A stretch of 64,000 bases of DNA, taken from NCBI GenBank assembly GCA_009379825.1, contig WHTA01000002.1, forward strand, positions 1 to 64,000, in the 5' to 3' direction. Made by a program: the position numbers and the translations under genes. The DNA comes from Streptosporangiales bacterium. Lineage in GTDB: Bacteria > Actinomycetota > Actinomycetes > Streptosporangiales > WHST01. The notes below the pieces were generated by a model, which had not been told where the DNA came from, ran no database searches, and saw only the letters and a program-made list of their open reading frames with translations. Each line of letters starts with the position of its first letter. The first letter of the stretch is position 1. This document shows, in pieces, positions 30,619 to 52,515 of the stretch.

Positions 30619-30780
30619 GCACAACTGGATCAACGTACCTGCCCACACTTCGGGACTAGCGTCTCGACGGTCCTCGGTAGTGGTACGCGGTGAGCGCCAG
30701 GCGCGACACCGCGTGCTTCGATCGATGACCGGCGCGACGCCCTAGCAGCGAAGAGTGGGCCGGTAAGGAAGGAGCGACCC

Positions 30781-38538: not shown

Positions 38539-38588
38539 GCCCGCCGGTGCTGCGCATCGGTACCATGGGTGCTCAGACAACTCGATAC

Positions 38589-38677
38589 GTGGTCGTCCAG
38601 GGGAAGCCGGTGCGAATCCGGCGCTGACCCGCAACCGTGAGCCCGTCCCGGGTGAGCCGGAGAACCTGAGCGACCAC
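38589..38677 (+). ncRNA. Cobalamin riboswitch
   Basis: The conserved B12 core is visible: GGGAAGCCGGTGCGAATCC, then GACCCGCAACCGTGAGCCC, then GAGCCGGAGAACCTG. P1 is closed by GTGGTCG (38589-38595) and CGACCAC (38671-38677). It lies upstream of an ECF transporter operon, so B12 or a precursor should control uptake of itself. The core is typical and needs no unusual fold. Downstream hairpins at 38687-38758 are the likely expression platform. Confidence 0.93.
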
Positions 38678-38735
38678 CTGCGGCTCCTCCGTCGAGGTTT
38701 GCGGGACGGAGCCCGGACCGCCCGGTCCGGTCGCC

Positions 38736-50596: not shown

Positions 50597-50615
50597 GCCG
50601 CCGGGGCATGGAAAA

Positions 50616-50655
50616 CCCCGGCCCTATCCGCTCGGGGGTTCGAACAGGGCCGGGG
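50616..50655 (+). repeat. Hairpin repeat copy 1
   Basis: CCCCGGCCCT (50616-50625) pairs with AGGGCCGGGG (50646-50655), a 10-bp perfect stem. The 20-base loop holds the shared core GCTCGGGGGTTC (50630-50641). It is flanked by AAAA on the left and, on the right, by a 17-base segment (50656-50672) also found beside copy 5. It may serve as terminator of the Cys-rich/MauE cassette. Confidence 0.8.
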
Positions 50656-50680
50656 CTCTGTGGTGTACATCGAGCCTGTC

Positions 50681-50736
50681 GGTCGAGTGTTACAGCTCCC
50701 GGAGGTGTTTCCGTGCTAACCGGGTTTCACTCGACC
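50681..50736 (+). repeat. Inverted repeat between hairpin copies 1 and 2
   Basis: GGTCGAGTG (50681-50689) pairs with CACTCGACC (50728-50736), a 9-bp perfect stem enclosing 38 bases that can form a smaller CCCGG/CCGGG hairpin. It resembles a two-tier RNA fold. There is no ORF within it. Function unknown. Confidence 0.55.
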
Positions 50737-50749
50737 AGTTGCAGTTTTC

Positions 50750-50791
50750 AGCCTCGGATCGATTGCTCGGGGGTTCAACCAACCCTTGGCT
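50750..50791 (+). repeat. Hairpin repeat copy 2 (degenerate)
   Basis: The loop core GCTCGGGGGTTC (50765-50776) is intact, but the outer arms pair only as AGCC/GGCT (50750-50753, 50788-50791) with some GG/CC support. It looks like a decayed member of the family, or a loop kept for another reason. Confidence 0.55.
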
Positions 50792-50806
50792 TTGATGGAG
50801 AAATCG

Positions 50807-50847
50807 CGACGGCTCGTGCTTTCGTTACAACCGTCGGTGACTTTTTT
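50807..50847 (+). terminator. Hairpin with T-run
   Basis: CGACGG (50807-50812) pairs with CCGTCG (50831-50836), followed by GTGAC and TTTTTT at 50842-50847. The loop is long (18 bases), so it is a modest terminator. It follows hairpin copies 1 and 2 and could end an RNA that contains them. Confidence 0.4.
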
Positions 50848-50894
50848 GGCTCCGCCGTGCCCTACGCAGGTCAACACCGCTGCGGACATGGTTC

Positions 50895-50938
50895 AGCCCC
50901 GGCATCGCTTGCTCGGGGGTTCAAACGATGCCGGGGCT
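50895..50938 (+). repeat. Hairpin repeat copy 3
   Basis: AGCCCCGGCATCG (50895-50907) and CGATGCCGGGGCT (50926-50938) form a perfect 13-bp stem. The 18-base loop holds GCTCGGGGGTTC (50911-50922). Stem sequence differs from copies 1 and 4 while pairing is kept. Downstream CATCGAGCC recurs beside copy 1. Confidence 0.82.
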
Positions 50939-51198
50939 TCTGTACATGTCATCGAGCCGACCCCCGCCGACGTTACGGGCCACCCGAACTTTTTCTCGCC
51001 CCCCGCTGTGACCCGCCCCACAACCAACCCACGGCGAGGCGCGCGACGGCCGCGAGTGGGCCACGTGCGTGCCGAGTGAAGCGAAGGCCTCCAGCCACGC
51101 ACCTTCCACCGGACGCAGGGAACCCGGGGGTCTGGGGCCGGGCCCCCAGAAAGAAACAAAGGGATCAGGGAAATTGGCGAGGCCGCCAATGAACAGGC

Positions 51199-51234
51199 CC
51201 GCCGCTGCCCGCTCGGGGGTTCAGGCAGCGGCGG
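51199..51234 (+). repeat. Hairpin repeat copy 4
   Basis: CCGCCGCTGCC (51199-51209) and GGCAGCGGCGG (51224-51234) form a perfect 11-bp stem. The 14-base loop is CGCTCGGGGGTTCA. The stem is unrelated in sequence to copies 1 and 3. Confidence 0.82.
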
Positions 51235-51401
51235 ACCGTTACTCGCACATTCTTACCGGTCAGTAGCCAGGGCTGCGCAGCTGCTGCGACGGATCGTCAC
51301 GTGACATGCACGGTTGGGGGCGCGGGTGTTCCGGCGGCCCACTGTCGGCGGCCGTCGTAGGTGTCCGGCTGCGGCCATTCATGGGGGGCTGGAGAGAAAA
51401 T

Positions 51402-51432
51402 ACGGGCCGCGGGCGTAACGCCCGCGGCCCGT
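51402..51432 (-). terminator. Strong minus-strand terminator
   Basis: A perfect 14-bp stem ACGGGCCGCGGGCG (51402-51415) / CGCCCGCGGCCCGT (51419-51432) with a TAA loop. On the minus strand it is followed by ATTTTCTC. It lies just beyond hairpin copy 5 in the same direction, so it may end a small RNA that carries copy 5. Confidence 0.75.
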
Positions 51433-51453
51433 GCCCCGATGTACACCACAGAG

Positions 51454-51493
51454 CCCCGGCGCTGCCTGAACCCCCGAGCGGGCGGTGCCGGGG
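51454..51493 (-). repeat. Hairpin repeat copy 5 (opposite strand)
   Basis: On the minus strand the loop reads CGCTCGGGGGTTCA (51467-51480). The 13-bp arms (51454-51466 and 51481-51493) pair with two mismatches. Next to it, 17 bases (51437-51453) are identical to the flank of copy 1. The terminator at 51402-51432 follows. It is inverted relative to copies 1-4. Confidence 0.78.
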
Positions 51494-51597
51494 TGTACGT
51501 TGTCCAGTCTTTCATGGGATCGCTACTCCGCGCAAATGGCATCTCACGAGCAGTAACGGTTGGGCGCGGCTGGGAGCGACGGGGTAGCGTTCGGTCC

Positions 51598-52515
51598 ATG
51601 GCAACAGCGCATACTCTCAGCCCCCCATTCGGACGCATGCTCACTGCCATGGTCACGCCCTTCACCGAGGATGGTCAGCTCGACGTCGAAGGTGCGCAGC
51701 GGCTGGCCAGGCACCTGGTCGACGCGGGAAACGACGGTCTCGTGGTCTCTGGCACCACCGGCGAGTCCCCGGTCACCTCCGACGAAGAGAAGGACCGGTT
51801 GTTGCGCGCCGTCCTGGCGGCCGTGGGTGCCGACGCCTACGTCGTCGCCGGCGTCGGCACCAACGACTCGGAGCACACCGTGCGGCTGGCCCGCGGGGCC
51901 GCGCAGGCCGGTGCGCACGGGCTGCTCGTGGTGAGCCCGTACTACAACAAACCGCCGCAAGCCGGTCTGCTGGCGCACTTCCGGTCGGTGGCGGACGCCA
52001 CCGACCTGCCGATGATGCTCTACGACATCCCGGGCCGCACCGGGGTCGCGCTCGAGTCGGACACGCTGCGCGCGCTGTCCGAGCACGACCGCATCGTCGC
52101 GGTGAAGGACGCGAAGGGCGACCTGTTCGCGGCCTCACAGCTGATCGCGGAGACCGGCCTCGTGTACTACTCCGGCGACGACCCGCTCAACCTCGCGTGG
52201 CTTTCTGTGGGTGCCGCCGGCTTCGTCAGCGTCGTCGGGCACGTGATCGCGGCCGACCTCGCGGCGATGATCCAGGCGTACCACGCGGGCGAGACCACGA
52301 AGGCGCTCGAGATCCACCAGCGCACGCTGCCGGTGGTACAGACCCTGATGAAGCGGACCCAGGGCTGCATCGCCAGCAAGGCGGCGCTGCGGATGCTCGG
52401 ATTGCCCGCGGGACCGGTGCGCCTGCCGTACGTCGACGCGGACCCGGATACGGTGGCTGCGATCCGCGCCGACTTGGCGCTCGCAGGTATCGACGTAGGA
52501 GAAGGCAACGCGTGA
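51598..52515 (+). CDS. dapA: 4-hydroxy-tetrahydrodipicolinate synthase
   Basis: Condenses pyruvate with aspartate semialdehyde at the entry to lysine and diaminopimelate synthesis. The TIM-barrel protein of 305 residues has VSGTTGESPVTSDEE, LLVVSPYYNKPPQ, the YDIPGRTG tyrosine loop and the Schiff-base Lys170 in AVKDAKGD. ATG 51598 lacks a strong ribosome site. The stop overlaps rnj by GTGA, the conserved order. The 1-kb hairpin region lies directly upstream. Confidence 0.96.
   Translation: MATAHTLSPPFGRMLTAMVTPFTEDGQLDVEGAQRLARHLVDAGNDGLVVSGTTGESPVTSDEEKDRLLRAVLAAVGADAYVVAGVGTNDSEHTVRLARGAAQAGAHGLLVVSPYYNKPPQAGLLAHFRSVADATDLPMMLYDIPGRTGVALESDTLRALSEHDRIVAVKDAKGDLFAASQLIAETGLVYYSGDDPLNLAWLSVGAAGFVSVVGHVIAADLAAMIQAYHAGETTKALEIHQRTLPVVQTLMKRTQGCIASKAALRMLGLPAGPVRLPYVDADPDTVAAIRADLALAGIDVGEGNA

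Follow-up and report, generated by a model that had tools for sequence, protein, structure and literature searches.

A hairpin array beside dapA

Five hairpins that share a loop but differ in their stems lie in the window (the whole stretch of 64,000 nucleotides analysed here), and we wondered what kind of element would hold its loop so constant while its stem changes. A first-pass annotation of this DNA had reported five elements with a common loop core. All five matches to the 12-base core GCTCGGGGGTTC were exact (50630, 50765, 50911 and 51211 on the plus strand, 51479 on the minus strand), and they are the only ones in the 6.15 Mb genome, all inside one intergenic gap; the reversed control pattern of the core had no match genome-wide. 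The gap is bounded by the end of a MauE-domain gene on one side and, on the other, by dapA, encoding 4-hydroxy-tetrahydrodipicolinate synthase (51598–52515, plus strand; PF00701, 7.4e-80).

Folded as single strands, all five units were more stable than almost every dinucleotide-shuffled control (z −3.6 to −7.8). Stems of 10–13 bp, perfectly paired in three copies, had been described; on the opposite strand the stems are longer and run to 14–19 pairs. The annotation had overlooked that this is the functional strand, which is minus for copies 1–4 and plus for copy 5, and on which the loop is C-rich, GAACCCCCGAGC. An invariant G-C pair closes the stem beside the loop; this pair and CCCCGA are constant, and the remaining stem sequence varies between units. 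Copy 1 (50612–50659, minus strand, loop GAACCCCCGAGC) folds at −35.8 kcal/mol (z −6.1) and copy 3 (50895–50938, minus strand) at −34.6 kcal/mol (z −7.8), the latter scoring 62 bits with R3, a covariance model of the hairpin only. Copy 2 (50750–50791, minus strand) is a degraded unit with a partly decayed stem and the weakest fold among the five (−19.4 kcal/mol, z −3.6; 29.2 bits with R3). Copy 4 occupies 51196–51237 on the minus strand, and copy 5, the dapA-proximal unit (51453–51494, plus strand), stands where most other genomes have their single copy.

Promoter-like boxes precede four of the five hairpins

Four of the five copies also carry GTAAC-N16/17-CGAT at a fixed distance upstream on the functional strand, which had likewise escaped notice. 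The layout of these units is GTAAC(A/G), 16–17 nt, CGAT, ~10 nt and then the hairpin with loop ACCCCCGAG. Pattern matching placed the candidate promoter of copy 1 at 50669–50693 (minus strand; −35 GTAAC at 50689–50693, −10 CGAT at 50669–50672, spacing 16), and GTAACG-N17-CGAT at 50803–50828 for copy 2 and 50951–50976 for copy 3 (both minus strand) and at 51415–51440 (plus strand) for copy 5. Copy 4 retains its hairpin without the canonical GTAAC/CGAT pair upstream; the pair is also absent from the last unit of one congener (G002) and present in another (G001). The flank common to copies 1 and 5 that the annotation had pointed out is the −10/spacer segment CGATGTACACCACAGAGCC and part of a 69-nt inverted match. 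A 15-bp perfect palindrome (51402–51432) surrounds the −35 element of copy 5, with a palindrome at the same place in unit 1 of G001, and could be an operator or a terminator.

The boxes match the C. glutamicum SigD consensus, −35 GTAAC(A/G) and −10 GAT (PMC6338062), so that four of the five copies have a predicted SigD/ShbA-type promoter of GTAAC(A/G), 16–17 nt and (C)GAT. The genome of the window encodes a SigD/ShbA sigma factor (NF007230, 254.6 bits, curated cut-off 209), which also matches solved structures of SigD (3vep) and of an ECF sigma factor (9isn). A GTAAC-N17-CGAT site at the start of the sigma factor gene itself (G000:C27, ~45.5–45.9 kb, L173) suggests that the gene is autoregulated, and the ORF that follows, which matches no family and has a single hydrophobic segment, may encode an anti-sigma factor. 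The remaining GTAAC-N16/17-CGAT sites of the genome had no hairpin of the array kind downstream. Although the box consensus is like that of SigD/ShbA-dependent promoters in C. glutamicum and S. coelicolor, the targets listed in PMC6338062 are protein genes, unlike the hairpin units here.

Copies 1–4 were inverted as a block

In two congeners the array sits between thyX and dapA and points throughout towards dapA; G001 has five units and G002 four. Units match one to one between species wherever the comparison is clear; copy 1, for example, is orthologous to unit 2 of G001. Relative to dapA, copies 1–4 and a thyX stub are inverted as one block in the window species. The stub (51248–51312, minus strand) is a remnant of the thyX 3′ end and downstream sequence, and 66 nt of it align at 75.8% identity with the end of thyX in congener locus L042. 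Whereas thyX is retained beside the array in the congeners, it was cut to its last codons by inversion/deletion in the window species; a search of the rest of the assembly, which had no positive control in that genome, gave no thyX. A further inverted repeat, GGGGGTCTGGGG..CCCCCAG, adjoins copy 4 and is conserved in all three species (window 51117–51157, L042 3850–3885, L043 ~760–790).

Inverted repeats and an inversion might be expected of a DNA-level element, and a REP-like element or recombination site had been among the roles first suggested, to which an integration site folded as single-stranded DNA may be added. However, the units occupy one locus only, without the dispersed copies of a REP or mobile hairpin; they are orthologous in the congeners, mostly occur as one copy beside dapA elsewhere, and keep a fixed spacing to sigma-factor-type boxes. 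Because of promoter register and synteny, this reading is largely refuted and we regard it as very improbable.

Stems covary across actinomycete families

Selection for structure, as the annotation had proposed, was borne out by covariation in sets of 11, 38 and 35 units. In a MAFFT alignment of 11 units, which was not fitted to structure, 97.7% of cells pair and 10 of the 16 pairs have two-sided changes, a result reached by none of 500 shuffles and lost when partners were slid. The two larger alignments were fitted to the model and are hence biased towards structure; here, 98.3% of cells pair in the set of 38 units from two families, with 147 two-sided cells, and 96.6% in the set of 35 units from other families, with 161 two-sided cells that cover all 16 pairs. 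The covariation also supports a binding loop in small RNAs, an option that had been named correctly but for the other strand. We checked whether the copies are unique to the window and fail to covary in relatives; they are found in relatives and covary there, which does not refute the first proposal.

These results also bear on a reading of the hairpins as chance or decaying sequence, or simply as terminators that work in both directions between thyX and dapA. Copy 2 is indeed decaying, and GC-rich hairpins are common in such genomes (a scan of the window for 10-bp stems gave 24 matches, several overlapping), but loop, box spacing and covariation are conserved across many families. The covariation in relatives refutes this reading as a full explanation, and its probability is negligible.

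To follow the element further, we searched 201 genomes of the order with a model of array-type units (R1) and 395 genomes of the class with a second model (R2). R1 matched 99 of the order genomes, mostly with a single copy, and R2 95 of the class genomes; in a 296-genome sample of the phylum, every match among those listed fell within the class. Of 27 loci examined in the larger related family, 26 have the element ahead of dapA on the dapA strand. It was also present, always on the dapA strand, in 27 of 41 named dapA loci, including all 18 from Streptomyces, Kitasatospora and Streptacidiphilus, all six from Actinomadura, both from Nonomuraea, and also Herbidospora. Near-identical units among the named matches came from Actinomadura, Nonomuraea and Herbidospora, and an assignment of the larger related family to Pseudonocardiaceae was rejected. 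No match was obtained at the other 14 named loci, including Nocardiopsis, Jiangella, Pseudonocardiales, Micromonospora and Frankia, and the element was absent from the five Pseudonocardiales dapA loci tested. R3 also recovered Streptomyces and other dapA copies at 48–57 bits. Copy 5, which has a loop of the ACCCCCGAG type and precedes dapA in the same orientation, belongs to this dapA-linked hairpin RNA family, for which we found no description in the literature searched, although this does not prove that none exists.

The boxes GTAAC(A/G)-N16/17-CGAT recur in 35 of the 38 units and 23 of the 35 units of the two larger alignments, 28–32 nt from the loop CCCCGA where this could be cleanly measured. 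Streptomyces units lack them and have TTGCGG-N18-TAGCCT-like boxes instead; as the Streptomyces promoter differs, SigD control is not universal. This is consistent with the few targets of S. coelicolor ShbA, for which only hrdB and shbA were found (PMC9205884).

Two other leads were dropped. Outside the genus, the 12-mer alone gave dispersed matches which, in the 30 loci inspected, were not in hairpins of the array kind, and a tRNA-like reading of GGGGGTTC was rejected, as there is no tRNA in the window or in these 30 loci.

The hairpin probably lies outside the main dapA mRNA

Outside the mycobacteria-like family, most lineages have the element ahead of dapA and in the same orientation, so it might be a cis-acting 5′ leader or attenuator, a hairpin within the dapA mRNA that controls lysine/diaminopimelate synthesis. 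However, dapA has a separate promoter-like −10, TAGCGT at 51585–51590 (plus strand), recognized by a TANNNT rule across dapA loci: of 73 loci, 69 have TANNNT at exactly −13 relative to the dapA start codon, and the remaining four have it at −12. A −10 so strictly placed points to a leaderless-type dapA message that excludes the hairpin, which is therefore probably a separate small RNA. Moreover, four of the five window copies (copies 1–4) point away from dapA, three of these keeping their boxes, the distance between hairpin and dapA varies from about 60 to 840 nt, and one genome of another family (G395) has copies away from dapA. We thus consider a leader unlikely. G395 (L133–L137) has five dispersed hairpin copies, all of them away from dapA; GTAAC/CGAT boxes accompany two, and a second TGAACCCCCGAGC precedes two.

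The units are built like the mycobacterial F6 RNA

No Rfam family reached its gathering threshold with the five elements. The only sensible near-match was F6 (RF01791), with 28.5 and 20.8 bits for window copies against a gathering threshold of 46, the higher score being the weak match of copy 4 at 51190–51243; the search of the window's own genome with this family gave no match. Being below threshold, the element was not assigned to F6. Both nevertheless have, at the RNA 5′ end, a single hairpin whose C-rich loop contains CCCCCGA (for the window units, with a start inferred from the promoter position), and promoter boxes, spacing, hairpin and CCCCCGA coincide. R2, which had no mycobacterial training data, landed on the site of RF01791 itself in one genome (G247, 875288–875368 versus 875280–875337), and the flanking genes at the matched mycobacterial locus were recognized by eye as fadA2- and fadE5-like. 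In contrast, R3 gave mycobacterial F6 only 15–24 bits, where it matched at all, so homology with F6 is not proven; from its build, the element may be a relative of F6. An F6-like unit was also seen in another genome (L131, G311), adjoining a gene that by eye resembles glucose-6-phosphate isomerase.

6C RNA has two C-loop hairpins, whereas the window units have one. Tandem multicopy sRNAs such as Qrr and CcsR consist of several similar genes with conserved seed loops; they differ from the array in phylum and sequence, and in the array an ECF-type promoter is retained by most units and the stem can change almost freely. 6C RNA (RF01066), like the element actinobacterial and described as working through C-rich loops (Mai et al. 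2019, as cited in PMC8557902), matched at 21.9 bits, below its gathering threshold of 47. F6 is a proven sRNA, which in M. tuberculosis is 102 nt long, is processed to 58 nt and uses a SigF promoter (PMC8557902). In M. smegmatis its promoter contains GTAACG, and a seed of 8 nt in its loop base-pairs with the 5′ UTR of rpfE2 (PMC8583896). F6 (SfdS) shares with the units the single 5′ hairpin, the C-rich CCCCCGA loop and, in M. smegmatis, the GTAACG promoter, but it lies between fadA2 and fadE5 rather than beside dapA, the flanks of its loop differ (CUGA..CCGACCCG), its M. tuberculosis promoter is of the SigF type, and it forms no tandem array.

A probable tandem array of SigD-type small RNA genes

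The array, the covariation, the promoter-like anatomy, the linkage to dapA, the orthology and the inversion are read directly from the sequence, and the explanation we consider likely is a tandem array of SigD-type, F6-like sRNA genes, for which we infer transcription, SigD dependence, RNA ends and base-pairing targets. According to this model, the ancestral state would be one copy just upstream of dapA, transcribed apart from it; amplification in the genus would have given four to five tandem units, and in the window species the block of copies 1–4 would then have been inverted and thyX lost. At at least four copies, a SigD/ShbA-type ECF sigma factor would start transcription ~6–10 nt after CGAT, placing the RNA 5′ end at or beside the foot of the hairpin. 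The predicted product is a stable hairpin RNA of roughly 45–60 nt that displays the loop ACCCCCGAG, likely to be the seed that pairs with UCGGGGG-type stretches in the 5′ portions of the mRNAs it targets, as with F6 in M. smegmatis. The copies need not all be active: the canonical boxes are missing from copy 4 and from the final unit of G002, and the stem of copy 2 is decaying.

A constant loop on a freely varying stem, present in several copies, would also suit a protein-binding sponge or decoy, in which the stem presents the loop as a protein site and more copies titrate more protein. Yet no protein is known or was found for this loop, and the similar F6 works by loop base-pairing (PMC8583896), so we judge a sponge quite unlikely. 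For the sRNA array, a genome-wide target search returned 49 TCGGGGG-N4-12-ATG sites, mostly at unconvincing gene starts, and identified no target. The rpf gene carries TTCGGGGGAC ~100 nt ahead of its predicted start, which is no more than a weak lead to a target.

More tentatively, and as a possibility somewhat short of probable, the units may belong to a class-wide actinomycete sRNA family with an ancestral single SigD/ShbA gene beside dapA, of which F6 would be a relocated descendant, and which was amplified in tandem in the window genus and dispersed elsewhere, for example in G395. In published descriptions, F6 is an RNA of mycobacteria whose SigF/SigD promoter switch is puzzling; if RNAs built alike form a wider family, in Streptomyces, Actinomadura, Nonomuraea and others, this would point to the GTAAC/GAT promoter, and perhaps to the location beside dapA, as the older state. 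Such a family would also supply harmless model species and allow comparative identification of targets. With its free stems, the tandem array separates selected features (loop and pairing) from unselected ones, and it provides a clear setting in which a barely studied RNA family can be tested. Elsewhere, the window holds an ordinary Actino-pnp RNA (30666–30733) and a cobalamin riboswitch (38557–38684).
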